Assembly (NCBI GenBank): GCA_007693595.1
Contig: REDI01000079.1
Location: 1-56,466 of the forward strand
DNA from: Deltaproteobacteria bacterium
GTDB taxonomy: Bacteria; Myxococcota_A; UBA796; GCA-2862545
DNA: 56,466 nucleotides
Reading direction: 5' to 3'
The stretch's first letter is position 1, and every line of letters begins with the position of its first letter. The translations under genes and the position numbers were made by a program. Positions 11,194 to 34,700 of the stretch are shown piece by piece. The notes beneath the pieces are model-generated. The model was not told the DNA's origin. It saw nothing but the letters and a program-made list of their open reading frames with translations, and did not search any database.

Positions 11194-13638
11194 TCACTGC
11201 ACGGCGCGCCACCGCCGAGCGGCGCGCTGGAGGGCCCAGTAGGCCTCTAGGGCGTCCCGGACCTCGGACCAGGGGCCTCGGAGTGGCTTGGCAGGTGGAA
11301 GACTGCGCAAGACGACCCGGCCGTAGCTCCGGTCGTGCAGCCTCCGGTCGAGGAGGAGCACGACGCCCCGATCGGCGCGGGAGCGAATGAGCCGCCCGAA
11401 GCCTTGGCGCATGCGCAGGATCGCTTGCGGGAGGACGATCGATCGGAACGGATCGCGCCCCGCCCGTCGCTCCGCCTCGACGCGGGCGGCGTGCAAGGGA
11501 TCGGAGGGCACCCGGAAGGGGAGCCGCGGCACGATGACCTGGCGCAAGCCCCAGCCCCGCACGCTCACCCCCTCCCAGAAGGCGTCGGTGCCGACCAGCA
11601 CCGCGCGGGGATCTTCGCGGAACCGTCGCAGCAGGGCGTCGCGGCCGGTCGGTCCTTGGGCCAGGACGACGCACCTGGGCCCCAGGGTCGCGCGTAGCGC
11701 CTGGGCGTAGCGCTCCACCGCCTCGTAGGAGGTGCACAGCACGAAGGTCCCACCCCCGGAGAGGCGGACCGCGTCGGCGAGGACGTCGCTGGTCCTGCTC
11801 AGGAAGGCCGGGTGATCGGGAGGCGGCAGGTCGTGGGGGATCCCGAGCACAGCCTGCGCGGCGTAGTCGAAGGGCGAGGGAAAGTCGTGGGTCTGAGGCT
11901 CGCGGAGTCCGACCCGTCCCTGCCAGAAGGTAAAGGAGCCCGCGACGGTGAGGGTGGCCGAGGTGCAGGCGGTGCCGGGGAGCGCGTCCCAGATCAGCCG
12001 CCGCACGACGGGGGCGACGTCGATCGGCGAGACATGCAGGCTCGCGGTGGCGATCCTCTTGGAACGGGGCGCCTCGATCCAGCGGCATTGCTCAGGATCC
12101 TCGTCGAGGAGGGCGCTCACGGACTGCAGCGCGGTGCCCAGCCGCCGCCGGGCTCGGATCAGCTCCTGCAAGGGGGGGAGATCCGCCTCGCCGAGCGTGA
12201 TGTCAGCGAAGATCTCCTGGACCTTGCTGAGCTTGTCGACGGAGGCCTGCAGCGCATCGAGCACGGCGATGACCGGGGGCTCGAGCTCGTGGAGCCACCG
12301 CTCGGAGCCCTCGACCTCCGGGGTGAGCCGGAGGGGTTGGGGGCCGAGGCGTCGGGCGAGGTCGGTGAGGGCCTCGACGCTGAGGGCGCGGAGGTGTTGG
12401 AGGGCGGCGGCGGCGTCGGGCGCGAGGCGGGCGAGCTCACGCTGGGCCTCGTCGCTCAGGGGGCCGGCGGAGCCGGTGTGTCGCTTGTGCAGACGGGCCA
12501 AGGCGCCGGGCCGCTTGCGCTTGGACAGCAAGGGAGCGGTGGCGCGCTGGATCCCCCGAGCCGTCACCTTGGCGGTGCTGGCCTCGGTGGCCGCTTGCTC
12601 CAGGTGGTGCGCCTCATCGAGGATCAGCCGCCGATACCGAGGCAGCACGCCGGGAGCTCGGAGCGACTTGAGGTGCCGATCCGCCATGAGCAGGGCGTGG
12701 TTGACCACGACGAGCTGGGCGGCCGCCGCCTCCCGACGGGCCTGGTAGTAGTGGCAGCGCTCGTAGAAAGAACAGCGGACGTGCAGGGTCAGGTCCGCGT
12801 CGGACTCCACCCGCTCCCAGGTCTCGTAGGCGAGCTCGAACGGTAGCTCCGAGCGTGAAGCGGGGGTGCTGGACCCCTCCCACGCAGCCAAGGCGCCCAG
12901 ATGAGGGTCGTCGGGCTCGTCCCCCAGCGCCAGGCCCAGGCGGCGCTTGCAGAGGTAGTTGGAGCGCCCTTGAAGGACCGCGGAGCGAACGTCGAGGCCC
13001 GCGCGCGCGAGGATGGGGAGATCCTCGGTGAAGAGCTGAGCTTGAAGGGAGCGGGTGAAGGTGCTGATCACGACCTTCTCGTCGTTTTTCAGGGCCCAGA
13101 GCGCGGCTGGCACGAGGTAGGCCAGGGACTTGCCCGTTCCGGTGCCCGCCTCGGCTGCGACGGGAAGATCGTCGTGCAGGCAGGCGAGCACGGCCAGCGC
13201 GAGGTCGATCTGGGTCGGGCGTGGTTCATGGCCCGGGAGCGCCCTGGGGAGATCCTGGGTGAAGAAGCGCTCGACCCTCGCGGGATCGACGCGCTTGAGC
13301 TCCTTGTTGTGGGGTTCGACGACCCAGTTGCTCTTCGTCACCGTCGAGTCGACGATCACGACCCCGATCCCGTCCTCCCCGTACCGGGACGCGAGGTGAA
13401 GGTCGGCTTCGCTCGGCCTCAGATCACCGCTGGGGTGGTTGTGGATGACGACCTGGCCCGTGCGCGGTCGCTCCAGCAGCGCGGGGACCCGGTCCTCGGT
13501 GCCTCGGCAGGTGATGGTCAGACCCACGACCTCGCCCCCGTCGACGTCGCCGATGGCGAAGACCTCGACGCCCCCCGCGTCTTGGATCGCGCGGCGGAGA
13601 TCGTTGGCGGCAGCGCGGGTGAAGCGAAGCGAGCTCAT
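11194..13638 (-). CDS. JAB/RadC-like domain fused to DinG/XPD-family helicase
   Basis: An 814-residue two-part protein. Residues about 1-115 are a JAB/MPN (RadC-like) domain with the metal motif HNHPSGDLRPSEAD (H65, H67, S69, D78) and a possible acidic E24. Residues about 120-800 are a superfamily 2 helicase of the DinG/YoaA/XPD group: Walker A AEAGTGTGKS (161-170), DEAH box (340-343), motif VI RMRQGFGRLIRS. The Fe-S domain shows C229 (NYLC), C288 and C294 (CSFYERC), but I do not see the usual fourth Cys five residues before C288. DinG-type helicases unwind R-loops and damaged DNA forks. JAB domains are either peptidases or inactive scaffolds, so the fusion's chemistry is open. Confidence 0.88.
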   Translation of the reverse strand: MSSLRFTRAAANDLRRAIQDAGGVEVFAIGDVDGGEVVGLTITCRGTEDRVPALLERPRTGQVVIHNHPSGDLRPSEADLHLASRYGEDGIGVVIVDSTVTKSNWVVEPHNKELKRVDPARVERFFTQDLPRALPGHEPRPTQIDLALAVLACLHDDLPVAAEAGTGTGKSLAYLVPAALWALKNDEKVVISTFTRSLQAQLFTEDLPILARAGLDVRSAVLQGRSNYLCKRRLGLALGDEPDDPHLGALAAWEGSSTPASRSELPFELAYETWERVESDADLTLHVRCSFYERCHYYQARREAAAAQLVVVNHALLMADRHLKSLRAPGVLPRYRRLILDEAHHLEQAATEASTAKVTARGIQRATAPLLSKRKRPGALARLHKRHTGSAGPLSDEAQRELARLAPDAAAALQHLRALSVEALTDLARRLGPQPLRLTPEVEGSERWLHELEPPVIAVLDALQASVDKLSKVQEIFADITLGEADLPPLQELIRARRRLGTALQSVSALLDEDPEQCRWIEAPRSKRIATASLHVSPIDVAPVVRRLIWDALPGTACTSATLTVAGSFTFWQGRVGLREPQTHDFPSPFDYAAQAVLGIPHDLPPPDHPAFLSRTSDVLADAVRLSGGGTFVLCTSYEAVERYAQALRATLGPRCVVLAQGPTGRDALLRRFREDPRAVLVGTDAFWEGVSVRGWGLRQVIVPRLPFRVPSDPLHAARVEAERRAGRDPFRSIVLPQAILRMRQGFGRLIRSRADRGVVLLLDRRLHDRSYGRVVLRSLPPAKPLRGPWSEVRDALEAYWALQRAARRWRAVQ

Positions 13639-13917: not shown

Positions 13918-16269
13918 ATGGTTTCGAACCGAACGGTCAGGGTTGTCTCGACCCTCTGTGCGCTGGCCCTTGTCGCGTGCGATCCCGAGGGAGGATCGAC
14001 CCCCCACGGTACGCAGACCGGGGCGCCTCCCGGCACACCCGAGATCCAGCTCTCTCCCGCGGCGCCTCAGACCCGAGACAACCTCGTCGTCGAGGTGCTC
14101 AACCCCCTGACCCATCTTCGCTATGGCTATGAGTGGCGACGCGATGGGGAGCTGATCTCCGACCTGACCTCCGACTTGGTGCCGCGCGCCCGCACCCAAA
14201 AGGGCGAGAGCTGGGAAGTCACGGTCATTCCTTATGACCAGCGCGTCGCGGGGCCTCGCGTCTCCGACTCGGTCCAGGTCGGCAACACCGCGCCCGAGAT
14301 CACCAGCGCGGCCTTTGAGCGCGAGGTCCCCTCGCCGGGCACGGGCATCGCCGTGCACTACACCACCGACGACGTCGACGGCGACGAGGTCTCGGTTCGG
14401 TTCTCGTGGACCCTCGATGGCGCCCCGACCCCCGACGACGGCCCCACCATCCAGGGCGAGCGGCTCGCCCGTGGGCAGCAGTGGTCGGTGACCCTCACCC
14501 CCACCGATGGCGAAGCCGAGGGCGAGAGCCGAACCCTCACCACCGAGGTGGGCAACACGCCCCCGAGCATCGCCGACGTGCTGCTCAGCCCCTCGACCGC
14601 CTTCACCGACACGGTCTTGGTCGCCGAGGCGGTCGACGTCTTCGATCCCGACGGCGACGAACTGACCGTCATCTATCGCTTCTTCGTCAACGATCGCCTG
14701 GTTCAGCACGGCGAGGAGCCGACCCTCGATGGCGCAGAGCACTTCGTCAAGAACCAGTCTGTCTTTGTGCAGGCCTTCGTCCGCGATGATCTCGATCGCT
14801 CCGACTCGGTCCGTTCCCAGGACCTCTTGATCCAAAACACCCCCCCCGTGGCGGCGTCGATCACCCTGCTCCCCGACGCGGCCGTCACCTCGACCGAGCT
14901 CGTAGCGAGCGTCGACGGCTCGGATCTCGACGGGGACCCCCTGAATCAGCGCTTCATCTGGCTCATCAACGACGTCGTCGTGCCCGAGGTGAGCGGCCCG
15001 GTCCTCGCGCCATCGTTCACCACCAAAGATGACCGGGTGGTCGTGCGGGGCTACCTCGTCGACGATGACGAGGACGAGAGCAACGTGGTCGAGTCTCATG
15101 CGCTCACGGTCGACAACACCCCACCGACCGCGCCTCGGGCCACCATCCTGCCTCGCGCCCCGATCCAGGGCGAAGATGATCTGGTCTGCACCATCGCCGA
15201 AGAGAGCTTCGACGATGACGGGGATCCGGTCAGCTACACGATGACCTGGATGGTCGACGGGCTCCCCATCGATGACTCCGACACGACCGAGTGGCCGGGT
15301 GACACCGTGCGCGGCGACCTGACCCTCGCCGAGGAGCTGTGGACTTGCGCCGTCACCCCCTTCGACGGGACCGACCAGGGCGAGCTCGCCACCGGGCGGC
15401 GTCGGATCACCTTCGATGGCACCATCCTCTGGGACGAAGAGGTCACCTTCACCACCTGCGGCGCGACCGGCCGGTTCGGCCCAACTCAGGCCGCCTGCAA
15501 CGACACCTACCGCGACTCCTTCCTCGAAGATGGGGTGGTGGTCGAAGAGGGGATCCAGATCTGGGAGGTCCCCGCTCCTGGCGACTACCGGATCACGGCT
15601 CACGGGGCCCAGGGCTTCAGCGCTGATTCGAGCCATACCGGCGGTCATGGCGCGCTCATCGAGGGGGTGTTCTTTCTCGATGAAGGGGAGCGGCTGCGCA
15701 TCGCGGTGGGGCAGCGCGGGGTCGGCGACGAGGCGAGCTGCAACGGTGGAGGCGGAGGAGGCACCTGGGTCATGACCATCTCGGGCGATCCGTTGCTCAT
15801 CGCCGGCGGCGGGGGCGGAACCCGCACCAGTGTCCGCCAAGACGGCTGCCCAGGGCGCGTCGAGGAGTTCGGAGGCCGCGGTTCAGGCTCGGCAGACACC
15901 TGGAGCTGCGCGCTCAAGACCACCGATCTGCGCCAAGGGGGGATCGTGAGCAGCTTCTCATGGGGCTCGGCGGGTGGGGGGCTCGAGAGCACAGGCGCGA
16001 GCGATCGGGTCGGGGGCAACGGAGGCAGAGGTTGGACCCAGGGCCTTCAAGGCGGCGGGACTCCCCCAGGCGAGGACGCCTACGGCGGCTTCGGTGGCGG
16101 TGGCGCGGGCAATGGCTCTTGCGGCGGCGGCGGCGGCGGCGGCTACTCCGGCGGCGATGGCGGTCGTCTCGCGGGCGGCGGCGGCTCCTTCAACGGGGGC
16201 CTGGAGCGCGTCGGAGTCGAGGGTGGCGCCGACGCGGGCGATGGCAAGGTGATCATCGACCTGCTCTAG
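13918..16269 (+). CDS. Lipoprotein with five Ig-like repeats and ALK-like glycine-rich C-terminus
   Basis: A 783-residue lipoprotein (STLCALALVAC; lipid on the Cys of LVAC). Residues about 40-510 contain five Ig-like repeats joined by NTxP hinges (NTAPEIT, NTPPSIA, NTPPVAA, NTPPTAP), each with the pattern L-xxxxxxD-DGD-xxxxYxWxxxG...F-xKxxxVxVxxxPxDG. These are paralogous to the repeats of the giant lipoprotein at 28.7 kb. The fifth repeat (CTIAEESFDDDGD...WTCAVTPFDG) matches the final repeat of the giant protein. Residues about 520-783 are glycine-rich and begin TFTTCGATGRFGPTQAAC, the Gly_rich (PF12810) motif known from ALK/LTK receptors. The stop overlaps the convergent gene by 4 nt. Surface role predicted; ligand unknown. 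Confidence 0.85.
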   Translation: MVSNRTVRVVSTLCALALVACDPEGGSTPHGTQTGAPPGTPEIQLSPAAPQTRDNLVVEVLNPLTHLRYGYEWRRDGELISDLTSDLVPRARTQKGESWEVTVIPYDQRVAGPRVSDSVQVGNTAPEITSAAFEREVPSPGTGIAVHYTTDDVDGDEVSVRFSWTLDGAPTPDDGPTIQGERLARGQQWSVTLTPTDGEAEGESRTLTTEVGNTPPSIADVLLSPSTAFTDTVLVAEAVDVFDPDGDELTVIYRFFVNDRLVQHGEEPTLDGAEHFVKNQSVFVQAFVRDDLDRSDSVRSQDLLIQNTPPVAASITLLPDAAVTSTELVASVDGSDLDGDPLNQRFIWLINDVVVPEVSGPVLAPSFTTKDDRVVVRGYLVDDDEDESNVVESHALTVDNTPPTAPRATILPRAPIQGEDDLVCTIAEESFDDDGDPVSYTMTWMVDGLPIDDSDTTEWPGDTVRGDLTLAEELWTCAVTPFDGTDQGELATGRRRITFDGTILWDEEVTFTTCGATGRFGPTQAACNDTYRDSFLEDGVVVEEGIQIWEVPAPGDYRITAHGAQGFSADSSHTGGHGALIEGVFFLDEGERLRIAVGQRGVGDEASCNGGGGGGTWVMTISGDPLLIAGGGGGTRTSVRQDGCPGRVEEFGGRGSGSADTWSCALKTTDLRQGGIVSSFSWGSAGGGLESTGASDRVGGNGGRGWTQGLQGGGTPPGEDAYGGFGGGGAGNGSCGGGGGGGYSGGDGGRLAGGGGSFNGGLERVGVEGGADAGDGKVIIDLL

Positions 16270-17765
16270 CGCGCGCCCGTGACTTCGACGAAGAGTCCAG
16301 CTCCTCCCAGGAAGCGCAGCTTGACGGTGCCGGTGTGACCATGTCGGTTCTTGATTACCGCAACCTGCGCAAAGCCGACGCCATCACGGGGGATCGGGTC
16401 GCGCCCGAGCGCGAGCAGCAGCGCCGCATCGGTCCCGAGACCACCGATCTCGTTCGTCAGACGCTCCCGAAGCCGAGCTCGATCCCCGGGTTCAGCGCTG
16501 GCACGAGCCAGCCGTTCGGCGGTCGAGAAGGGATCGCGCAGCCCGGCTGGGACCCCGACGACGGCGAGTACGGCCGCCCCAGGCCACTCCGGCCCTAGGC
16601 TTCCTGGGCGCACCAGATCCCGACAGGTTGCCGAGAGCTCCCGGTACGCCCGGTCGAGTGAACGGCCGTCTTCGAAGCCCTCGACAGGATCGACGATCAC
16701 CAATGGGGCCCGCTTCTTACAGGCGGCGACGACGCCCGTCGCTCGCGCGCGGAGCGCCTGATCGGTGCGTTCGGGGGTCGTTGGGTTCCAGATGTAGAGC
16801 GAGGAGAGCACCTGAAGTAGGTCTTGGCTGGCGAGGTGAAGACCTTCGGGCTCGCCGCGAGCCAGGCCCACGGCGACGTGGCTGCCGGGCACCATCGGAC
16901 CGCCGGTCGCCGCTCGCAGGACCATGAGTCGCGCCACGACCTCATCGACCGGCAAGTCTGCGGAGGCATAGAGCACGGGAGTGCCTTCGCGAGCGACCGC
17001 TTCGGCCATCTGAAGGGCAAAGGCGGTTCGACCGGAGCCGCTCCCCCCCACGAGTACCGCCAGTCGGCCCGGCCAGAGGCTCCCCGCGAGGTCTCCCAGG
17101 GTCGGCAGGGCCAGATCGGGGTTCCCTGCGTCTTGGAGGACTTGAAGCACGCTACGATCGCCCCCATCGGCGGGAAGGGCGCGCACCGATCCGGGCCACG
17201 GGAGAAGCACCCTCCGCTCGGCATCGCGCAGGCGACGCTGATACGAGGCGACCGCGTCGGACATCTCGATGCCCGCGACTGCGAGGGCGGCCTCGCGGAT
17301 CCGGTCTTCTTCCGCCCACTGTGAGAGTTCGACCTTGACCCGATCCGGCGAGATGGGCGCGCCATCTTGGAACGCGTGCTCGAAGCCCCCAGGGACCAGC
17401 GCAGGCAAGGCCACGACCCGCGCGGGTCGAGCGACGGCTTCGTCGAGGGAGCCTGCGGTTCGGCGTGGATGGAGGGCCCACTGCGCGATCCGCCGCGCCT
17501 CTTTGAGAGTCACGGTACGCTCGAACGGCACGATGACCCGCCACCGGGGCCCGGGTGGCCGCTCACCTTGGGCGCGTTGATGGTAGGCGGAGGTGTAGGC
17601 GATGAAGGCGTAGCCCTCCCACCAGCGGAGGAGGTGTGGGGCATCGACCAGCGGATCGTCGAGGTACTCCAGTACCAGACCGCTCACGCCCTCCACGCGC
17701 TGCTCCGTCTCGATCTCAGCCTCGAGGGAGCCACCTCCGAGAATGCGGCTGTTGTCGCGGAGCAA
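16266..17765 (-). CDS. Primase/DnaB-like replicative ATPase
   Basis: A 499-residue frame from a TTG start. The C-terminal half is a RecA/DnaB-type ATPase: Walker A VGGSGSGRTAFALQMA, Walker B-like LVIVDPVEGFEDGRSLD, and IKNRHGHTGTVKLRF near the end, as in DnaB. The N-terminal half has AFIAYTSAYH...RWRVIVPFERTVTLKEARRIAQW, the pattern of phage/plasmid primase-type proteins. The same frame stays open to a stop at about 17984 and the extra residues (FFSAPYRW, TWTWAKLKRVLDAPELWP) look homologous to such primases. The true start is therefore probably upstream, possibly a CTG near 17954 with GAGGTG before it. Probably a mobile-element remnant or accessory replication gene; no other replication gene is nearby. 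Confidence 0.75.
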   Translation of the reverse strand: MLRDNSRILGGGSLEAEIETEQRVEGVSGLVLEYLDDPLVDAPHLLRWWEGYAFIAYTSAYHQRAQGERPPGPRWRVIVPFERTVTLKEARRIAQWALHPRRTAGSLDEAVARPARVVALPALVPGGFEHAFQDGAPISPDRVKVELSQWAEEDRIREAALAVAGIEMSDAVASYQRRLRDAERRVLLPWPGSVRALPADGGDRSVLQVLQDAGNPDLALPTLGDLAGSLWPGRLAVLVGGSGSGRTAFALQMAEAVAREGTPVLYASADLPVDEVVARLMVLRAATGGPMVPGSHVAVGLARGEPEGLHLASQDLLQVLSSLYIWNPTTPERTDQALRARATGVVAACKKRAPLVIVDPVEGFEDGRSLDRAYRELSATCRDLVRPGSLGPEWPGAAVLAVVGVPAGLRDPFSTAERLARASAEPGDRARLRERLTNEIGGLGTDAALLLALGRDPIPRDGVGFAQVAVIKNRHGHTGTVKLRFLGGAGLFVEVTGAR

Positions 17766-18066: not shown

Positions 18067-18429
18067 CTAGCGTTCGTCGATGAGGGCGGCGTGCAGCGCG
18101 CGGTTCATGCTCGCGATGATCTCGAGCGCGTCCCCCTGCTGGCGGAGCCACAAGGTGTGGGTGTGCGCCGTCGCCTGCTGAGCCTCCGCGGTCGCTCGCG
18201 CGAGCTGACCGATCGTGGTCGCGGGCGCGGCGGAGGGCGTGGTTGGGGCCGGTGGAGGCTTCGGATCCGTGGCGGTCGGGGGAGGCTCCGGGCGAGCCGC
18301 GCGGGGGGGCTGCTGCGGCGCGACCCAGGCCCTCCACGGGAGCGCCTCGACCCTCGCTGGGGGTGCGTGGAGCTGGATCGCGGGCCCCGACCCCGTGCTC
18401 CAGCGGGTCCACGGCAGCGAAGGGCTCAC
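18067..18429 (-). CDS. Small coupled protein of the lipid synthase locus, linker-like helix
   Basis: A 120-residue frame starting with GTG whose GTGA overlaps the TGA stop of the pfaA-like gene, so translation is coupled to it. The first 70 residues are Pro/Ala-rich and disordered-looking. The C-terminal 45 residues are a predicted amphipathic helix containing Q-xx-TA-xx-H-xxx-LR-x-Q-xx-A (in AQQATAHTHTLWLRQQGDAL). The same spaced motif occurs in the synthase at about residues 1033-1051 (QARTAEVHAEFLRGQAKA), between AT and the ACPs. I infer a docking or dimerisation partner for the synthase. No named family is recognised. Confidence 0.6.
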   Translation of the reverse strand: MSPSLPWTRWSTGSGPAIQLHAPPARVEALPWRAWVAPQQPPRAARPEPPPTATDPKPPPAPTTPSAAPATTIGQLARATAEAQQATAHTHTLWLRQQGDALEIIASMNRALHAALIDER

Positions 18430-21400
18430 TCGGCACCCTCGCGGTACCGTTCGTTCAAGCCTTGCATCGACGTATACTGGCCACCTTCGATCCGAGCGAC
18501 CACCCGACCGGCGCCGTCGACGAACGTCGCGTCGTAGTGGCCTTGCCTGCTCTTGCCCGGCTTGAACTCGATGTGTGCCGAGATCGGGCCGCGGAATGGG
18601 GCGGTCTGAGTGTAGCGCCCGACGTAGCTCGGCAGGGCGGAGGCGCCCTGGTGCTCTCGGACCCAGAGCCCGACGAGCTGAAGGGCGCTGTCGAGGGTGA
18701 CGGGATCGGTAGTCCAGGTCGTGGCGTCGACGCCCAGGCGCTTGGGCTTGGAGGCGGAGAGCTGGCCGACGATGCCGTGGTCACTCATGCCGAGGATGTC
18801 CTCGATGCCCTGAAAGCCAGGGCCGTGGAAGAGGAAGCGCTGGTAGGCCTCGCCGACGGCGTAAGGGTAGGCGACCGCGCCCAGCCCGTTGCTCCCCGGG
18901 AAGCGATCCCCCGAGGCAGCTCGGTATGCCAGATCGACCGTTCCTCGGTAGTGCACCGTGGGAAGCCCCAGCTTGTTTGGGGCGCCTCGCAGCTCGAACG
19001 CGAGCGAGAGGCCGCCGTCGAGGGCGGGGCTTGTCGGGCGCCAGCTCAGGGTCAAGGCGATCTCATCGTCCTCGAGCACCACCCCCTTGAGCACCGCCAC
19101 CTCGCGCATGCCGACGAAGCGCAGCTCCGGGTGTCGCCGACGGGCCGCGTCAGCCATGAGCTCGAGCGCCATCACGAAGGGCAGCACCGGCTTGCCGTCG
19201 ATCCTGTGGTCGGCGAGGAAAGTCTGCTCTGCGCGAAGGAAGATCGTCTCTTCTCCCTCGCTCGCGTCGGAGATCGCGCGGCTTGGGCGCTGCCCCAGCA
19301 GCCCGCTGGGGCTGTCGGGACCGCCGATCACCACCTCGACCGCCGGGCCACCCCTCTCCAGCTCCTCGCAAAAGGCCTCGGCCCCCTGGACCTGCCCCAC
19401 GAGGGCGAGCCCGCGAGCCTCGAAGGCGGCGGCGAGGGTAGGCGTGACCATCCCCCCGTCCCAGGGACCCCAGTGAAAGGCTTTGACCCCAGGGACGCCC
19501 GCATGCCTCCACGCATGACACAGGTGGGTGATGGCCTCGTTCGCCATGGCGTAGTCCGCCTGGCCCCGGTTGCCGTACCGGCCCGCGACCGACGAGAAGA
19601 CGGCGAGCAGCTTGAGGTCCTGGGGCGAGGTGGTGGCGAGCAGCGATCGCAGCCCTTCGACCTTGGTCTGGTAGACGCGATCGAAGTCTGCGAGGGACTT
19701 GTCTGCGATCAGCTTGTCGGCGATGATCCCAGCGCCGTGGACGACGCCCCGCACCGGGCCTGCGCCGTGGCTCACCTTGGCGACGGCCGCGCGAACGGCC
19801 TCGCTATCGGTGACATCGACAGCGGCATAGGTCACCTCGCACCCGAGCTCTTTCAGGTCGTTCAAGGTGGAGCGCACCTCGCGCGACCGCCGCACCTGGG
19901 CCAGCTCCCGCTCCACCCTTCGGGGATCGAAGGGGGCTTGTTCCTCGCGCATCTTGCCGATCAGCGCGGGCTTGAGCTCCTGATCGTCGACCCCCCGGGC
20001 CCACGCGGGGTCCTGCTCTTCGACGGCGCTGCGGCCGAGCAGGAGGAGGGTGGGAGACCAGCGTTTCGCCATCTCGCGCACGACGGCCGAGGTCACGCCG
20101 CGGGCGCCGCCGCTCACCACGACCAGATCCCCGGCGCGGAGGGGGGCCTGGACGGGGGCGCTCGGGTGGAGGGTCACCGGCACGACCTCGAGCGTGATCG
20201 CCTCGTCGCTCAGGCCGATCTCGACCACTCCGCGATCGGTCATGAGCTCCTCGGCCAACCGATGGGGATCGACGCCCTCGTCGATGTCTACCGCGAGCGC
20301 GCGACAGGGAGGACGCTCCTGCTCCAGGGTCTTGACGAGCCCGGCGAGGGCGCCCTGAAGGGGCTCTCCGTCGCTCCGCTCGTGCCCGAAGGTTCCACCG
20401 AGCCCCGAGACGGTGGCGAAGAAGCGCGCGCTGGGTGCCAACTTGGCGAGCAAGAAGGCGCCGCGCACCCGCGCTTCGAGATCCTTCCCGACGGCTCCCA
20501 GGGCGGCGAGGTGCACGATCCCGGAGGTCGAGGGGGGAACCTGCTCCCCCACGGTGGTCAGGCTGGCCCAGTCGGGATCGATGACCCGAGGCTGCACGCC
20601 GCGCTCGCGCAGGGCGGCGGCCAGCTTGTCGGCCATACCCAGCCGGTCGCGGGTCAAGATCAGCGGGCTTGGCAGGGTGATCCCTTCGCCGTCGGGCGCG
20701 GGCACGATCACGACCTCGCGCCGGAGCGCCCCCCGAGGCGGCTCGGGAAGGGCGGCCGCCGTGGCGGGGGCGGCCGGCTCCGGAGGGGTCGATCCCTCCC
20801 GATGTGCCTTGACCAAGGCGAGTAGATCGCGCAGGGTTCGGACGCGGGCGATCTCGTCTTCGGGCAGATCAGGAAGCCCGGGAAGCGCTTCGGCCAAGGC
20901 TGAGAAGATCTCGACCCGCTTGATGCTGTCGATGCCCAGGTCGCCCTCGAGCTCCATCGAGGGCTGCAGCAGATCGACGGGATAGCCGGTGCGATCGGCG
21001 ATGGTCTGGAGGATCGTGCCATCCACATCGGTCGGAGGGGCCTTTGCTGGACGCGCGCCGGCCCTGGCCGAAAGGGAGACGGGTGGCGCTTCGGAGGCGC
21101 TCAGGGCCTCGATGATGTCGCCAAGCGTGCGCAGCCCCGAGAGCTCTTCTTCGGGCAGCTCCGGCGCGTCGGGCAGGGCCTCGGCGATAGCGGAGAGGAT
21201 CTCGACGCGCTTGATGCTGTCGATGCCCAGGTCGCCCTCGAGCTCCATCGCGACCCCGAGCAGATCCCTTGGATAGCCAGTCTTCTCGGCGACCAGGGTG
21301 AGCACGGTGCCCGCGAGGTCCGCGCTCCGAGCGGTGGCTGTCTTGGCCCCGGCGGGTTCCGGGGAGGGCGAACGCAGGCGGGCCTCGAGATCGGCCAGCG

Positions 21401-24400
21401 TGCGGATCGAGCCCAGCTCGTCCTCGGGGATCTCGGGCGCTTGGGGCAGGGCGTCTTGCAGGGCCGCCAGGATCTCGACGCGCTTGATGCTGTCGACCCC
21501 CAGATCGGACTCCAGATCCATCTGCGGCTGGAGCAGATCGGTCGGATAGCCGGTCTTTTCGGAGACGATCTGAAGCACGATGGAGGCTGGATCCACCGCC
21601 GGGGCCTGCGTGGTGGTCTCGGGAGGAGGCGCGGCCCGATGGCGGGTTGCGCTCGGTAAGGGTTGGCCCTCCTTGATGGCTGAGGCCAGCGTTTGAGCCG
21701 ACAGCATGGGAGGGAGGTCCTGGCTATCGCGCACGCGGGGACCATCGTTGCGAGGCATGTCGAGGGTCGTCGCCCGCTGAGGATCGGTCGGACGCAGGAC
21801 CGCCTCGGCGAGCGCGTCGTGGGTCCCTTCGATCGGCGCGGGAGCCGGGTCTACGGCGGGCACGGAGGCCGCGAGGGGGGCCTTGCCGCCGAGGAGCTGC
21901 GTCTGGCTCCGGAAGAGCTCGGTGAAGGTCTCGTTGGCCTTGGCCTGGCCACGAAGGAACTCGGCGTGCACTTCGGCGGTGCGGGCCTGGGTCTGCTGGA
22001 AGGCGGTCAGGCTCTCGCGCGTGGCCTGGATCAGCGAGGCCAGGGCTTCGCTATCGAGGGGGGAGGGGTCCGAAGAGCGGGGAGGGGAGGTCGTCATGGT
22101 CTGGCCTTGGGAGAGGTCCGCGTCGGAAGGAGGCGTGAAGAGGAGGGGGCCGGCGGTGTCGGTGTCGGGGTACGACCCGTTGACCGCCGTGGAGGGCGAG
22201 GCGGGCGCGTCGAGGGAGCCGCCGGCGTGCACCCGAGCCACGGGTCGTGTCGGGGAGGGCCGCACGAAGAGCTCGTCGCGCTCGGGCAGCTCGACGGGAC
22301 GCTTGAAGTTGGCCCCAGCGAGCCACACCGTGGCCTTGCTCCCGGCGGTCCGGGGGGAGCTCGGAAGCCGCTCCTCCAGGATCGGCGAGACGTCGATCGC
22401 GACCCCGCGACAGGCCAAGGCCATGAGGGCTCGCTTGAGCAGGGCATCGCCGTCGGTCTCGCCGTGGTCGGGATCGAGGCAGACGACCTCGATGTCGGTC
22501 CGGTCTGGCAGGCAGCGCTGGATCAGGCGGCTCAGCACCGACTTTGGACCGCACTCCACGAAGGTGGTGACCCCAGCGTTCGCCATCGCACGCACCACGC
22601 CGACCCAGTCGACCCCATGGGTCACCTGATCGGCGATCAAGGATCGGATCTGCGCGGGGTCGTCTGGGTAAGGGGCGGCCGACACGTTTGCGAAGACCGG
22701 CACGGAGGGGGGCTCGACCTGGATCTGCCCCAGGGCTTCGAAGAGGGGCGCGCGGGCATCGCGCACCAGGGGGCTGTGGAACGCCGCCGAGACCTGCAGC
22801 TCCGTGCCGGTGATCTCCTGGGCCTCCGCGGCGGCGAGCACGGCGTGCACTGCCTCGCGAGGACCCGCGATCACCCCTTGCTTGGGATGGTTGCGGTTGG
22901 CGAGCGTGACCTGCGGGTGGTCTGCGATCAGCGCTTCAATCTTGTCGAGGGGCGCCTTGAGCGCCGCCATCGTTCCTCGATCGGCCTCGCCCTCGCTCAT
23001 CGCGGAGCCTCGCACGTCCGAGAGGGTCCACAGGGCCTCGGACGACCAGACCCCCGCGGCGTGCAGGGCGACCAGCTCCCCGTAGCTGTGCCCAGCGAAG
23101 GCATCCGCCTTGACGCCGAAGCGCTCCAGGGTCCGCCACAGGCCGACCTCGAGGGCACCGAGGGCGGGCTGGGCCCAGGCCGTCTCCCGGAGCGCCATCG
23201 TCTGGCCCTTGCGCTCGGCAGGGGTGAAGGCAGGCGGGGGATAGATGCGGCGCGCGAGGCTCTCACCGCGGGAAGACTTGAGGGCTGCCTCGGCCTGATC
23301 GAGGGCATCGATCAGGGCAGGATGGCGCAGCGCTGTCGTTCGTCCCATGTTGACGTACTGGCTGCCTTGGCCAGGAAAGACCACCCCGATCTTGCCGTTG
23401 CCTTTTAAAGGTAGGGCAAATCGCACGCCGCCACGCTCGGCCGGCTGGTCGGCTCGGGCGAGCTCGTGGGCGATCCGAAGACGATCCCGCGCCTCGTCGA
23501 GGGTGGAGGCACAGAAGGCGATCACCTTGGGCCCTGGGGTCCAGCGCTCGAGCACGGCATGGGCTGCGTGATGAAGCGTCGGCGCTCCGTCCAGATCGAC
23601 CGCTTCGAGGGACTGCTTCAGGGCCTCGGTGGTCTCGGCACCAAAGAGGAAGAGCGCTTGCTCGGCGATCAGGGCCGTTGGGCGGGACTCGCCGTACTCC
23701 TCAACGGCGAAGTGATAGTTCGTGCCTCCAAAACCAAAGGCACTCACCCCCGCGCGACGCGGGCTGTCGGGCGAGCGAACCCACGGCCGCGCCTCGGTGT
23801 TGAGGTACAGCGGGGTCCCTTCGAAGTCCAGGCGGGGGCTCGGCTGTCGGATCTTGGCGGTCGGTGGAAGGACGCGCTGGTGTAGCGCCAGGGCGATCTT
23901 CATCAAGCCTGCGGCCCCAGCGGTGGCCTTGGTGTGCCCGATCTGCGACTTCACGCTCCCCAGGGCGACGTGTGCCTCGTCGCGCTCGCTCTTGAGAAAG
24001 ACCGCACGAAGGGCGTTGAACTCCGCGAGATCCCCAGCCTTGGTCCCCGTTCCGTGGGCCTCGATCAGCTCGACGCTCTCGAGGGGAAAGCCGGCCTCGG
24101 CGTAGGCGCGCCGCACGGCCTTGACTTGGCCCCCTGAGTTCGGGGCGTAGATGCTTTTGTTTCGTCCGTCTGAGCTCGTGCCGATACCCCGGATCACCGC
24201 GTAGATCCTGTCGCCGTCCCGCTCCGCGTCGGCCAAGCGCTTGAGCGCGAACATGGCGATCCCCTCGCTGATCACGATGCCGTCGCCGTCGACGTCGAAG
24301 GGACGCGAGTCGCCCCGCCGGGACAGGGCAGGGGTCTTGCTGAAGCACATGTACATGAAGATGTCGTTGAGGGTGTCGGTGCCCCCCGAGAGGGCCAGGT

Positions 24401-25085
24401 CGGTGCGGCCAGTCTGAAGCTCGCCGATGGCGTAGTGCAGGGCCCCCAGGGCGCTGGCGCAGGCGGCGTCGACGGTCGCGTTGGTGCCTCCCAGGTCGAG
24501 GCGGTTGGCGATCCGCCCCGCGCTCACGTTGGCGAGCATTCCGGGGAAGGACTGCTCCTGCCAGGTGGGGAGCATCTGCCCCACGTCCTCGAGGATACGC
24601 TCGATCACCGACTCGGGGACGCCGTTGCGCTGGAGCGCCCGACGCCAGGTGGGGCCGTGCAGCCGGGCCGACAGGTCCACCACGAGCTCGTTGGTCGAGG
24701 TGTGGCCAAGGATTACGCTCGTTCGGTCGCGATCCCAGCCCTCCCCGTCGGGATCGAGGCCCGCGTCGCGCAGGCACTCGCGGGCCACGATCAAGGCTAG
24801 GAGCTGGTCTGTGTCGATCGCTTCGAGGGCGTGGGGGATGACCCCATGGTCCATTGGATCGAAGGGGACCTTGTCGATGAACCCCCCCCGCGTCGCCCAG
24901 GTCTTGTCGGGGGTCTTGGGGTCGGCGTCGAAGAAGTCGTCGGGCGACCAGGAGTGGTCCGCGGGGATGTCAGAGAGACCATCGGTGGCGTGCACGATGG
25001 CGCGCCAGTACGACGTCAGGTCCGGCGCTCCCGGCAGGAGCGAGGACATTCCGACGATGGCGATGGGGGGGAGCTTCTCGGACAT
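18426..25085 (-). CDS. PUFA-type polyketide/fatty acid synthase, PfaA-like
   Basis: A 2219-residue iterative synthase with domains KS-AT-ACP-ACP-ACP-KR-DH. KS about 1-460: DAACASA with active Cys209, EAHGTGT with His344, QIGHTKATAG with His384. AT about 560-860: PGQGSQY and GHSYGE with Ser667. A linker (about 1000-1060) holds the Q-xx-TA-xx-H motif. Three ACPs carry GVDSIKR or GIDSIKR with phosphopantetheine serines 1199, 1290 and 1387. KR about 1650-1890: SGGARGVTS, SSVAGRYGNRGQADYAMAN (Tyr1845). The C-terminal DH-type hotdog has DHRIDGKPVLP (His1960) and LDSALQLVG (Asp2132). Order and motifs match PfaA of PUFA synthases, although PfaA usually has more ACPs. The product is probably a secondary lipid. 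No pfaB, pfaC or pfaE homologue is in the window. Confidence 0.9.
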   Translation of the reverse strand: MSEKLPPIAIVGMSSLLPGAPDLTSYWRAIVHATDGLSDIPADHSWSPDDFFDADPKTPDKTWATRGGFIDKVPFDPMDHGVIPHALEAIDTDQLLALIVARECLRDAGLDPDGEGWDRDRTSVILGHTSTNELVVDLSARLHGPTWRRALQRNGVPESVIERILEDVGQMLPTWQEQSFPGMLANVSAGRIANRLDLGGTNATVDAACASALGALHYAIGELQTGRTDLALSGGTDTLNDIFMYMCFSKTPALSRRGDSRPFDVDGDGIVISEGIAMFALKRLADAERDGDRIYAVIRGIGTSSDGRNKSIYAPNSGGQVKAVRRAYAEAGFPLESVELIEAHGTGTKAGDLAEFNALRAVFLKSERDEAHVALGSVKSQIGHTKATAGAAGLMKIALALHQRVLPPTAKIRQPSPRLDFEGTPLYLNTEARPWVRSPDSPRRAGVSAFGFGGTNYHFAVEEYGESRPTALIAEQALFLFGAETTEALKQSLEAVDLDGAPTLHHAAHAVLERWTPGPKVIAFCASTLDEARDRLRIAHELARADQPAERGGVRFALPLKGNGKIGVVFPGQGSQYVNMGRTTALRHPALIDALDQAEAALKSSRGESLARRIYPPPAFTPAERKGQTMALRETAWAQPALGALEVGLWRTLERFGVKADAFAGHSYGELVALHAAGVWSSEALWTLSDVRGSAMSEGEADRGTMAALKAPLDKIEALIADHPQVTLANRNHPKQGVIAGPREAVHAVLAAAEAQEITGTELQVSAAFHSPLVRDARAPLFEALGQIQVEPPSVPVFANVSAAPYPDDPAQIRSLIADQVTHGVDWVGVVRAMANAGVTTFVECGPKSVLSRLIQRCLPDRTDIEVVCLDPDHGETDGDALLKRALMALACRGVAIDVSPILEERLPSSPRTAGSKATVWLAGANFKRPVELPERDELFVRPSPTRPVARVHAGGSLDAPASPSTAVNGSYPDTDTAGPLLFTPPSDADLSQGQTMTTSPPRSSDPSPLDSEALASLIQATRESLTAFQQTQARTAEVHAEFLRGQAKANETFTELFRSQTQLLGGKAPLAASVPAVDPAPAPIEGTHDALAEAVLRPTDPQRATTLDMPRNDGPRVRDSQDLPPMLSAQTLASAIKEGQPLPSATRHRAAPPPETTTQAPAVDPASIVLQIVSEKTGYPTDLLQPQMDLESDLGVDSIKRVEILAALQDALPQAPEIPEDELGSIRTLADLEARLRSPSPEPAGAKTATARSADLAGTVLTLVAEKTGYPRDLLGVAMELEGDLGIDSIKRVEILSAIAEALPDAPELPEEELSGLRTLGDIIEALSASEAPPVSLSARAGARPAKAPPTDVDGTILQTIADRTGYPVDLLQPSMELEGDLGIDSIKRVEIFSALAEALPGLPDLPEDEIARVRTLRDLLALVKAHREGSTPPEPAAPATAAALPEPPRGALRREVVIVPAPDGEGITLPSPLILTRDRLGMADKLAAALRERGVQPRVIDPDWASLTTVGEQVPPSTSGIVHLAALGAVGKDLEARVRGAFLLAKLAPSARFFATVSGLGGTFGHERSDGEPLQGALAGLVKTLEQERPPCRALAVDIDEGVDPHRLAEELMTDRGVVEIGLSDEAITLEVVPVTLHPSAPVQAPLRAGDLVVVSGGARGVTSAVVREMAKRWSPTLLLLGRSAVEEQDPAWARGVDDQELKPALIGKMREEQAPFDPRRVERELAQVRRSREVRSTLNDLKELGCEVTYAAVDVTDSEAVRAAVAKVSHGAGPVRGVVHGAGIIADKLIADKSLADFDRVYQTKVEGLRSLLATTSPQDLKLLAVFSSVAGRYGNRGQADYAMANEAITHLCHAWRHAGVPGVKAFHWGPWDGGMVTPTLAAAFEARGLALVGQVQGAEAFCEELERGGPAVEVVIGGPDSPSGLLGQRPSRAISDASEGEETIFLRAEQTFLADHRIDGKPVLPFVMALELMADAARRRHPELRFVGMREVAVLKGVVLEDDEIALTLSWRPTSPALDGGLSLAFELRGAPNKLGLPTVHYRGTVDLAYRAASGDRFPGSNGLGAVAYPYAVGEAYQRFLFHGPGFQGIEDILGMSDHGIVGQLSASKPKRLGVDATTWTTDPVTLDSALQLVGLWVREHQGASALPSYVGRYTQTAPFRGPISAHIEFKPGKSRQGHYDATFVDGAGRVVARIEGGQYTSMQGLNERYREGAE

Positions 25086-27962: not shown

Positions 27963-28723
27963 CGTGCCAGTCCTCCGCGGGTTGTTCGTGGTCCGATAAC
28001 ACGAGATGCCCCAGGGGGATTCCCGAGTAGTCCCCGTTGGCAGACCTCAGATGGGCTCGGGCGCCGGAGGGGGTGCCCCGTGGAACGCGGCCGCAGGTCG
28101 ACGCGCGTCGCGGGCTCTCGATAGTCCAAGAATTGAATATTTGTAGAATTCGTGATGACAGCTTCAAGCTCCACTCGGCTGCTGAGCCGATCCAGTGCGT
28201 TTGGAGTGGTCCAACATTCTCGTTGTTGACGGGATCCAGGACAGGACCTGTGCAAATTTCAACACTCAGAGGAGGCGACTCAAGCATCGATTCAATCGAT
28301 GACCGCATGAAGTATTTGGATTATGGGTGCCGTGGATGAAGGGGCACACGCCTGCCGAGCTCTCCCTACCTCGAATGGGGTACGAGACAGGTTGCGGTTG
28401 CGAATACGCACCGTCGTACAATCCTTTCAGCGCAGCGCTGGTGACGGCCGCTCGATGCCCAAGGCGTCCGCCTGGGGCTCGGGTCCTTCTCCGAAGCTGC
28501 AAGGAAAGGGGCAGGTTAGAGTATGGCTCTCGCCGAAGGCTTCTCCGAAGCGCAGCGTTGAACGTCGATGCAGGAGTGAAGTGGACATCCGTGAACATCC
28601 TTGACACGCGGTGATGACAGATTACCCGCCTCGGGATTTGGTGTTTTTTACTCACCGACTTGTATTACTTCGACCCCTTCGGTAGCCTACTCGGGCTCTC
28701 TTCTCAGAACAGGATTCGCCATC
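27963..28723. other. Long intergenic region between divergent genes
   Basis: About 760 bp without a supported gene; the short frames on both strands have no homology-like content. It is less GC-rich than its surroundings (for example around 28125-28160 and 28625-28680) and must hold the promoter of the giant lipoprotein gene. A TTGACA (about 28599-28604) lies 120 bp upstream of that start, without a convincing -10 at the right spacing. I see no tRNA-like or riboswitch-like fold by eye. Confidence 0.4.
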
Positions 28724-31700
28724 ATGAACAAGCGCGCCTCCCTTCCCGTCTCTCTCGGCTCTGCCTTGGTCCTCGCTGCCCTGGCTGGCTGTCAGTCCGC
28801 CCCGGTCGCCCCGGTGGTCCGCGTCGCGCCCGACCGGCCGTCCACCCTCGATGACCTCGAGCTTCGCGTCGTGGTCGGCTCCGACCAGCTCGATAACTCC
28901 GAGATCGCCTTCTACAACATCCGCTGGCTCGTCGATGGCGTCGAGGTCCGCGACATTCGCAACGAAGACACGGTCGACTCGAGCCTCACCGCCAAGGGTC
29001 AGGAGTGGTCGGCGCTCGTCACCCCCGTCGACACCCGCGGTCGCGAGGGCGAGACCGCGCAGACCTCTGCGGTGATCCTCAACACGCCCCCCGCGGGCGA
29101 CGTGAGCATCTCACCCCTGCAGCCGCAGCCCGAGCAAGAGCTCACTGCGAACGCCACCGGCGAAGACATCGACGAGGATCAGATCACCTGGTCTTTCCGC
29201 TGGTTCGTCGATGGCGAGCTCACCGAGCACACCTCCGAAGTCCTGCCCTCGGGCCTCACCAACAAGGGCGAGGTCTGGATGGTCGAGGCCACACCCAACG
29301 ACGGCGACGACGACGGCCGCCCCACCACCGCCTCCGTCGTGATCGACAACACCGCCCCAGTCGTCGTCTCTATCACCATCCAGCCCACCGAAGCCTACGG
29401 CAACACGGACCTCACCGCGGTGCCCGAAGGCTTCGACGAAGAGGGCGACACGATCATCTGGAGCTATCGCTGGTTCCGAAACGGCGAAGAGATCGAGGGC
29501 GAAGAGTCCGAAGTCCTCGGCGCCGACAACTTCGCCAAGGCCGACGCCATCGAGGTCGAAGCCACCCCGAACGACGGCTTTACCGACGGCTTCCCTCAGC
29601 GCAGCCTCGCGGTGCACATCCTCAACACCGCCCCCTCCTTCGAGTCGGCCTCCATCGAGCCTGAAGTGGCCTACACAACCACCACGCTGTCTTGCATTGG
29701 CTCTGGGTTCGAAGACCTCGACGGCGACCCCGAAGGCTACGTCCACACTTGGTTCGTCAACGGCGTCGAGATCTCCACCGACCCCACCCCCGCGGTCGAG
29801 CTCTACGCCAAGGGCGACAGCGTCCTCTGCGAGCTGACCGCCTTCGACGGCGAAGACACGGGCAACACCGAGTCCAGCGAGCCCATCATCGTCTTGAACA
29901 CCGCCCCCACCCTCGACGCGGTCGCGATCAGCCATGAAGAGCCCACCGTCCAAGACGTCCTCAGCGCCGAGCTCGACGGCGTGTTCGACGCCGACGGCGA
30001 TGTCGTCGAGTTCGCGTACCGCTGGTTCACCGTCGACGATGAGACCGGCGACGAGATCGATCTGAGCGATGAGCCCGAGCTCACCTCCACCGACTTCGAG
30101 AAGGGCATGACCCTCTGGGTCGAGGTCACCCCCTCCGACGACGAAGAGCCCGGCATGCCCGTGGTGAGCGAGCCCGTCACCATCCTCAACGCCGCCCCCG
30201 AGATCGACAGCCTCGAGCTCGCCCCTGCGCCCGACGAGGCCTTTGCCTTCGTCGACGTGGTGGCCAGCGTCGAGTCCTCCGACGCCGACGGCGACGAGGT
30301 CACCCTCGACTTTGTCTGGTCGGTCAACGGCGAGCCGATCGAAGACCTCGAGGGCGACACCCTCGACTCCGACTTCTTCGTCAAGGGCGACGTGGTGCAG
30401 GTCACCGTCACCCCCACCGACGACGAGACCGACGGCGAGCCCGCCACGGCCTCGCTGACCATCCTCAACAGCGAGCCCACGATCGAGGGCGCCACCATCG
30501 CGCCCGACGCGCTCTTCGCCGACACCTCGGTCACCTGCTTCCCCTTCGGCTGGTTCGACGCCGACGACGACGAGGAGTACTACCGCTACCGCTGGCTCGT
30601 CGGCGACGAGGTCGTCGGCAACACCTCGGTGCTGCAAGGCGACGTGGTCGAGCGCGGCATCGACATCGTCTGTGAGATCACGCCCTTCGACGGCGAGGCC
30701 CACGGCGAGGCCCGCGTCTCTGCGCCCATCCAGCGCTCCAACACCCCGCCGGTGCTCGCGGGCGTCAGCCTGTCGACCCTCACCCCCCAAGAGGGCGACA
30801 CCATCGACGTGATCCTCGGCGATCTCTTCGACGACGACGGCGACGACATCAGCCTGTCCTACGCCTGGTTCGTCGGCGACGCCACCGATCCGGTCCACGA
30901 CGGTGAGCAGCTCAGCAGCGACGACTTCGTCAAGGGGCAAGACATCTACGTCGTCGTCACGCCGAGCGACGGCTTCGACGACGGCGCCCCCGTCATGTCC
31001 GACATCGCCCGCGTCCAGAACACGGCACCCACGGTCGAGAGCGCCTTCATCAGCCCTGAGCCCGCCTACACCGACAGCATGCTTCAGTGCGTCGGCGTCG
31101 GCTTCGACGACGCCGACGGCGACGACGAAGGCTACCTCTACGCCTGGTTCGTCAACGGCGAGGAGCGCTCCACCGCGGCGTCCCTGCCCACCGATCAGTT
31201 CAGCAAGCGCGATTCCGTTCACTGTGAGCTCACCGCCTTCGACGGCGAAGACGAGGGCAACACGGTCGTCGCTGACACGATCGAGATCCAAAACTCTTTG
31301 CCCACCATCGAGATGGTGGCCATCGACAACCCCGAGCCCACCGTGCGCGACACCCTCGGGGTCGACATCGTCGGCGTGTTCGACGCCGACGAAGACGACG
31401 TCTCGCTCGCCTACCGCTGGTACACCCTCGACGACGTCACCGGCGAGGAGCTCACCCTCGGCACCGAGGCCGAGCTGCCCGGCTCCGACTTCGACAAGGG
31501 CATGATCGTCTGGGTCGAGGTCACCCCCTCCGACGAAGACGGCCCCGGCATCGCCATGGTCAGCGAGCCCGTCGAGGTGCTCAACGCTGCGCCCCAGATC
31601 GACGAGATCAGCGTCGCCCCCGATCCGGCCTTCACCCTCACCGACCTCGTCGCCACCGTCGATGCCTCCGATCCCGACGGCGACGACGTCGAGATTGACT

Positions 31701-34700
31701 TCGCGTGGTACGTCAACGGCGCCTTCGTCGACGCGGCCCTGGGCGACACGCTCACCGCCGACAACTTCGTCAAGGGCGACGTCATCACCCTCACCGCCAT
31801 CCCCTCCGACGGCGACCTCGATGGCGAGGCGGTCGAGTTCGGCCCCGTCTCGATCCAGAACACCGCGCCCTCCATCGCTGGCGTGAACATCGAGCCCGGC
31901 GAGCTCTTCGCCGACTCCTCGGTCAATTGTGTGCCCTTCGGCTGGTCCGACGATGACGGCGACGAGGAGTTCTACCGCTACCGCTGGCTCCTCGACGGCG
32001 CCGAGGTCGGCAACACCTCCGTCCTTCACGGCTCCGTCGTCCCCCGCGACGTCAACCTCGTCTGCGAGGCCACCCCCTTCGACGGCGATGACCTGGGCGA
32101 GCCCCGAGTCTCTCCCGCGATCCAGCGCTCGAACACCCCGCCGGTGCTCGCGAGCGCGACCCTCACCAACACCAGCCCCCAAGAGGGCGATGTGCTCGAG
32201 GTCACCCTCGGCGCCGCCACCGACGCCGACGGCGATGGCGTGAGCTTCAGCTATGCGTGGTACGTCAGCGGCAGCATGGTGCACACTGGCGAGACCCTCG
32301 ACAGCAGCCTCTTCGCCAAGGGCGACGACATCTTCGTCATCGTCACGCCAAACGACACCTTCGACGATGGCGCGCCGGTCACCTCCAACATCGCGCGCGC
32401 GATCAACACCCCGCCCACCTTCACCGGTGCGGCCGTCCAGCCTGCGGTCGTCTACACCGACACCCCCGTCGAGTGCGTCGGCTTCGGCTTCGACGACGCC
32501 GATGGCGATCCCGAGGGCTACCGCTACACCTGGTTCGTCGACGGCGTCGACCAGGTCTTCGACGGCCCCTTCCTCCCGGTGGACCGCTTCGAGAAGGGCC
32601 AGTCCATCTCCTGTGAGCTCATCGCCTTCGACGGCGAAGAGCTGGGCAACAGCCACGCCGCCGATCCCGTCCAGGTGCTCGACTCCCTACCCACCATCGG
32701 CGAGGTCGAGATCGACCTCGAGCGCCCCACGGTCCTCGACACCCTCACCGCCGTCGTGTCTGACGTCTTCGACGCCGACGGCGACGAGGTCACCCTCTTC
32801 TATCGCTGGTACTGGATCGATAGCGAGACCGACGAGGAGATCGACCTGGGCGATAACGATATTCTTGAGCTCGGCTCTTCGGATCGAGGCCGCACGATCT
32901 ACCTCGAGGTCACGCCCTCCGACGATCCCGACGACGAGTCCCGGTTCGGCGCGACGGTGTCCGCAGAGCCCGTCACCGTGCTCACGACGATCCCCGAGGT
33001 CGTCCTGCTCGAGATCCAGCCGGATCCCGCGTTCACCTTCGACAACCTGATCGCTGTCATCGAGATCGACGACGACGCCGACGACGTCGAGCTCACCTAT
33101 GAGTGGCGGGTCAACGGCGTGCTCATCCCGGGCGCCGATGGGCCGGACCTCGGCTTCGAGAACTTCGTCAAGGGCGACGAGGTCCTGCTCTCGGTCACCA
33201 CCTCCGACGGCACGACCGGCGAGCGGGTCGTCTCCGAGAGCATCATCATCCAGAACAGCCTGCCGGTGGTCGAGGAGCTGACCATCGAGGGCGACGCGGG
33301 CGACGGCACCTTCACCGTCGACTCCACGCTGAGCTGTGCAGTCGGCGAGTTCAGCGACGCCGACGGCGACGACGTTGAGTTCTTCTACCGCTGGTACGCC
33401 GGCTCCGACGTGGTCAGCACCTCGATGATGCTGCCCGGAGGCGCGGTGGACCGCGGGGTCCCCGTGACCTGCGACGTGCGCCCGAACGACGGCGAGTCCT
33501 TCGGCAGCGCGGTCGTGGCGGGCCCGGTCGAGCGCGTCAACGTGCCGCCGGTCCTCGACAGCGTGATGCTGTCCAACCTCAACCCGCGTGAGGGAGACAC
33601 GATCGACGTGATCCTCGGCGATCTCTTCGACGCCGACGGCGACGGCGTCTCGGTCGAGTACGAGTGGTTCGTGAACGGCTCCTCCGAGGGCCTGCCGACG
33701 GGGTCCTCCCTGTCGAGTGAGCACTTCGCCAAGGGCGACAGCGTCTTTGTGCGCGTGCACTACAACGACGGCTTCCTGGCGACGGCGCTCACCCGAGACT
33801 CCGACATGGCGACGGTGGGCAACACCGCGCCGGTCATGGAGGCGGTCAGCATCGCGCCGCTCGCGCCCTACACCACCGACGGGGTGGTGGCGACGGCCTC
33901 GGCGACCGACGCCGACGCGGCCGACGCGGCGAGCCTCAACTTCACCTACACCTGGCTCGTCGATGGCGACGTGGCGCAGGTCGACGAGAACGTCGGCGCG
34001 ACAGCGACGCTGAGCGCGAGCGCCTTCCGCAAGAACCAGACCATCCAGGTGCTGGTCCACGCCAACGACGGAACCGATGACAGCGCGGCGCTGCGCAACG
34101 CGGTCGACGCGCGCTCCATCAACACCGCCCCGTCCATCGCCAGCGCCTCCATCACGCCGTCCACCGGCATCGTGATGGGCACGGAGCTGACCTGCAACAC
34201 GTCTGGTTGGGCCGATCCCGACAACGCCGACGACGCGTCTGTCGACGTCGAGCAGTACGAGTACCAGTGGCACGTCAACGGCTCGGTGGCCGGCGTCGAC
34301 TCCACGCTGTCTTCGGGCTTCGAGCGCGGCGACATGGTCACCTGTACGGCGATCCCGGTCGACGACGAGGGGGCCCGCGGCGACGCGCGCACCAGCGACC
34401 CGGTCGAGGTGCAGCCGAGCGTGCCCGTGGTCGACGCGGCCATGGTCGAGGCTGCCGGCGACGGCGGGGTGCTCGACACCTTCTGGTGTGTGGTCGAGGC
34501 CGAGGTCTACGACGACGTCGAGTTCGAATACCGCTGGCTGGTTCAAGACCCCGCAGGCGACGAGATGGAGCTCGTCGACGAGCTGGGCGACAGCCTGGCC
34601 AACCCCTCCGAGGGCGAGCGCCTCTTCGTGCGCGGCGAGGAGCTTCGCTGCGTGGTCACGCCGGTCCTGTTCGAGGGCTCCGACGAGATCCGCGGCGATG

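Follow-up and report, generated by a model that had tools for sequence, protein, structure and literature searches.

The stretch of DNA analysed here, 56,466 nucleotides at its full length and referred to as the window, encodes a PfaD-type enoyl reductase and a PfaA-type synthase (hereafter S1), and the stop codon of the latter is overlapped by the start of an ORF of modest size. This arrangement raises the question of whether the small ORF represents a new accessory component of such lipid synthases or has another origin. The identity of the two large genes is well supported: S1 scores 1444 bits against TIGR02813 (cut-off 1010) and harbours KS, AT, three ACP, KR and DH domains according to Pfam, and the reductase scores 609 bits against TIGR02814 (cut-off 449). 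A PfaC-type KS-CLF-DH-DH synthase was found neither in the window nor in the assembly. The features under discussion are collected in the table below.

Table. Coordinates in the window of the small ORF, its parts and the adjoining pfa-type genes
Feature	Position	Strand	Basis
Small ORF, 120 aa, GTG start	18067..18429	-	CLF-DH interdomain linker match (PfaC-like synthase), codon-position GC
N-terminal 69 residues of the small ORF, Pro-rich, predicted disordered	18223..18429	-	L30-x-W32 alignment, AlphaFold2
C-terminal helix of the small ORF, residues 70-119, shared linker-helix family	18073..18222	-	Helix profiles, AlphaFold2
GTGA overlap, small-ORF start and S1 stop	18426..18429	-	Sequence
GAGGG, possible ribosome-binding site, 6 nt 5' of GTG	18436..18440	-	Sequence
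PfaA-type synthase S1, 2219 aa, KS-AT-(helical linker)-ACP x3-KR-DH	18426..25085	-	TIGR02813, Pfam
S1 linker helix, residues about 1013-1068	21882..22049	-	Sequence, helix profile
PfaD-type enoyl reductase, 538 aa	25095..26711	-	TIGR02814

The small ORF runs on the minus strand over 120 codons, from a GTG at 18429 to a stop at 18067, and its start overlaps the TGA of S1 as GTGA. The coordinates and the overlap agree with the first-pass annotation of this DNA. At 75% GC, about 26% of mononucleotide shuffles would be expected to contain an open stretch as long as this one. The GC content at the three codon positions is coding-like for the whole ORF (0.71/0.66/0.89) as well as for its helix half (0.69/0.49/0.92), and differs in the 301 bases that follow (0.72/0.61/0.56); such a composition would also be left behind by a recent deletion. 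With regard to homologs, the small protein has no match in Pfam, NCBIfam or phage records, and a search of 94 genomes returned weak low-complexity matches only, chiefly due to chance. The genomes searched yielded no ortholog, and the helix family has no significant match among solved structures.

The slot occupied by this ORF is informative when PfaD-S1 loci from relatives in the same class are considered. In nine of them (G003, G009, G010, G011, G012, G016, G018, G020 and G051), S1 is directly followed by a second synthase, S2. The complete S2 of G011 contains one KS domain, another KS-like region interpreted as CLF and a pair of FabA-type DH domains (Pfam), which corresponds to a PfaC-like layout; that of G009 carries an additional AT-like stretch, read by eye. 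S1 and S2 abut closely; G009 and G051 even show an overlap of the S2 start codon with the stop of S1, which in G051 takes the form GTGA, just as in the window. Among 80 named genome-contig loci, a KS-bearing synthase follows S1 in 42 of the 66 with a readable next gene. Three relatives (G013, G019 and G004) have no S2 beside S1 and carry a full S2 elsewhere in the genome, and none of the three has a helix ORF after S1. In the S1 tree, the window synthase pairs with that of the same-genus G001 and is nested among S2-adjacent lineages, so that S1-S2 adjacency is probably ancestral. G001 itself is uninformative on the gene after S1, because its synthase breaks off at residue 1099, where the contig ends.

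The first link between the small protein and the synthases is a motif, Q-xx-TA-xx-H-xxx-LR-x-Q-xx-A, which is indeed exact in both S1 (Q1033-A1050, QARTAEVHAEFLRGQAKA) and the small protein (Q84-A101, QQATAHTHTLWLRQQGDA). A profile of S1 helices gives the small protein 11.6 bits, the best of up to 10,000 composition-matched shuffles reaching 10.3; a profile combining S1 and S2 helices gives 22.3 bits, and none of about 10,000 shuffles exceeds 12.3. Furthermore, in a set of 19,132 ORFs, the small ORF was retrieved with an E-value of 3e-4 before iteration and was the sole match in an ORF of less than 500 residues. Pairwise BLASTP between the small protein and the synthase gave no significant similarity for the helix. 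Judged by these profiles, the likeness of the S1 and small-protein helices exceeds chance.

The similarity is not restricted to the helix. The linker that separates CLF from DH in S2 is Pro-rich and ends in a helix, and almost the entire small protein can be aligned with it, L30-x-W32 standing opposite an L-x-W that is present in each of the eight S2 linkers. On a profile built from these eight linkers, the small ORF scores 24.3 bits over residues 6-114, with all of 10,000 shuffles at 9.4 or below, whereas it obtains 7.4 bits on the S1-linker profile. For calibration, true S2 linkers left out one at a time score 22.6 to 89.4 bits on the S2 profile and -4.7 to 19.4 on that of S1, and true S1 linkers score 101 to 143 bits on the S1 profile. 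The small protein is thus grouped with the S2 linkers, since its 24.3 bits fall in their range and its 7.4 bits far below that of S1 linkers. In the same sense, its helix shares 25-28% identity with S2 helices and 17-22% with those of S1. AlphaFold2, run with the S2 linkers as alignment, predicted residues 1-69 as disordered and residues 70-119 as one long helix (pLDDT about 93-98).

The S2-linker signal sits chiefly in the helix. When the N-terminal half was compared alone with S2 linkers, its core score was reached by 438 of 10,000 shuffles, and block shuffling of this half only reached the real S2-linker score in 69 of 5,000 cases; it is therefore supportive rather than proof. In other respects, residues 10-47 of the small protein resemble residues 47-85 of the PfaD N-terminus (pairwise E-value of 7e-4, reached by 5 of 10,000 shuffles). 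A PfaD origin of the small-protein N-terminus was considered and rejected, the S2-linker and PfaD profiles being unlike and no long DNA match being present; the similarity is a minor one.

That the ORF is unrelated to the synthases, its Ala/Gln/Leu-rich helix resembling their linkers by coincidence, would fit its low-complexity composition and the BLASTP result, but is scarcely credible given that the real score was attained neither by shuffles, with the S2-linker or the combined helix profile, nor by 5,000 block shuffles, and that the ORF occupies precisely the S2 slot.

The first-pass annotation had gone further and proposed a detached docking or dimer-forming subunit that adds a linker in trans, possibly as a new accessory component of secondary lipid synthases; in this reading, the small protein copies the S1 linker and serves such synthases in general. 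Membership of the same helical-linker family as S1 holds, and the shared motif at S1 residues 1033-1050 and the 11.6 bits on the S1 helix profile can be cited in its favour. The idea of a copy does not hold, the whole ORF scoring far outside the range of genuine S1 linkers and within that of S2. As for a general role, the 144 fetched loci, some of which overlap, contain 19,132 ORFs, and the small ORF is the only short one with a linker helix and hence not a recurrent accessory component; the conservation in related genomes that such a role implies was not seen, no short helix ORF following S1 in the other loci of relatives or in the 80 named genome loci. This proposal has already been largely refuted, and we regard it as very improbable.

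If the ORF derives from S2, the remainder of that gene might be sought elsewhere in the genome, whose assembly is rated 98.4% complete in 97 contigs. A whole-S2 query against this assembly retrieved only KS domains of other synthases, and a search with the FabA family yielded a single 159-codon ORF and no DH-DH pair. No further S2 remnant was found within the window, and two breakpoints are therefore needed. As S2 is relocated in three relatives, it could lie in the missing 2% or so of the genome. These data also bear on an assembly artefact, namely a collapse joining S1 to an internal piece of S2. The fragmentation into 97 contigs, with synthase genes broken elsewhere at the ends of contigs C95 and C89, makes such an error conceivable; it would, however, require two false joins within about 360 nucleotides, deep inside a 56-kb contig, as well as a small-ORF start falling exactly on the S1 stop by accident, and no S2 pieces are present elsewhere in the assembly. 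We thus hold an artefact to be very unlikely.

Taken together, the small ORF is probably a lineage-specific leftover of a PfaC-like S2 (KS-CLF-linker-DH-DH) that formerly stood directly after S1. This is supported by its slot, its start/stop geometry, the resemblance of the complete ORF to the linker of S2 and the lack of S2 in the assembly. It shares with the PfaC-like synthases of pfa-type clusters the slot, a similar start overlap and the CLF-to-DH linker including the helix, and differs from them in lacking KS, CLF and DH and in its length (120 residues versus about 1,900-2,600). We can propose that, in an ancestor carrying S2 directly after S1, an in-frame deletion removed the KS-CLF part and that everything after the linker helix was lost or replaced, which would have left the coupled ORF of 120 codons. 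The genes flanking the cluster have no counterpart in the relatives' loci and thus give no clue to the position or age of the right-hand breakpoint. PfaD and S1 (KS, AT, three ACPs, KR and DH, with ER in trans) may then represent a reduced iterative lipid synthase working without S2, and the leftover, if translated, would be a tail-plus-helix peptide devoid of enzymatic role and most likely vestigial. Against the remnant reading stand the weak match of the N-terminal half taken alone, the need for two breakpoints, the possible location of S2 in the missing part of the genome, and an open frame and third-position GC of 0.89 that are tidier than expected of old junk.

In a related explanation, what remains of S2 has been retained by selection after loss of the enzymatic part, its helix packing in trans on the S1 linker helix and thereby holding the S1 dimer and its ACPs stable or in the right orientation. 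The start coupling and the GAGGG site, the coding-like base composition of the helix half, the sparing of the entire helix (as predicted with high pLDDT) and the relatedness of the S1 and S2 helices, as in a possible docking pair, all point in this direction. On the other hand, no ortholog was found (the same-genus S1 being cut by the contig end) and relatives with a relocated S2 carry no such ORF, and we consider retention unlikely. More specifically, PfaA- and PfaC-like synthases might recognise each other via related linker helices, the PfaC half of this contact being kept here, after loss of the PfaC enzyme, as a free trans subunit of 120 residues, a scenario to which we attach little probability. 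Such docking in trans would be of interest in view of the related helices borne by both synthases of this class.

Short helical elements joining subunits are well known as docking domains of modular PKS and NRPS. To our knowledge, these are always ends of synthase subunits and never separate genes. The small-ORF helix, as a short element that could join subunits, would be a putative analogue of these docking domains (reviewed in PMC9113145), but is encoded by a separate gene. With regard to gene content, the closest arrangement is the type J pfa-like cluster of Shulse and Allen (2011), which is described as consisting of pfaD followed by pfaA only, comes from a planctomycete, encodes a KS-MAT-ACP3-KR synthase and is termed apparently partial (PMC3098273). 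The window resembles it in its two-gene pfaD-pfaA layout with three ACPs and differs in that S1 has an additional C-terminal DH, followed by the linker ORF.

If the remnant reading is correct, what appeared to be a new accessory protein becomes a readable stage of pfa-type cluster decay, in which the DH-DH synthase is gone and the PfaD-PfaA pair is retained. In addition, the PfaA- and PfaC-like synthases of this class bear related linker helices, suggesting a possible docking route for these giant and structurally poorly known enzymes; such a helix is not discussed in the available portions of three PUFA-synthase papers (PMC3098273, PMC12895367 and PMC13311796).

Other synthases and neighbouring genes deserve mention. 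In the same genome, contig C31 (L093:842-7207) encodes a KS-AT-KR-DH synthase with a C-terminal class I/II aminotransferase fusion. A third synthase is seemingly split at its ACP repeats over the ends of contigs C95 (L092:1-6296) and C89 (L094:6381-10136), and the C89 part, a synthase fragment distinct from S1, ends in a fused phosphopantetheinyl transferase (ACPS) domain. Two public metagenome records bear names that fit poorly: L143, named 'Rhodobacterales', matches G012, a member of this class, in its synthase ORFs, and L173, named 'Klebsiella pneumoniae', contains a pfa-like synthase pair. Directly downstream of the small ORF, positions 16266-17765 (minus strand) encode a divergent DnaB_C-type ATPase of 499 residues, far under the DnaB cut-offs and without counterpart in the relatives' loci. 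An 814-residue protein (11194-13638, minus strand) carries, according to Pfam, a RadC-like JAB domain N-terminal to a DinG/XPD-type helicase. Finally, a 4802-residue Asp-rich protein with many similar repeats is encoded at 28601-43009 (plus strand), and a 783-residue protein (13918-16269, plus strand) begins with repeats like these and has a C-terminal Gly-rich domain with weak similarity to ALK_LTK_GRD.
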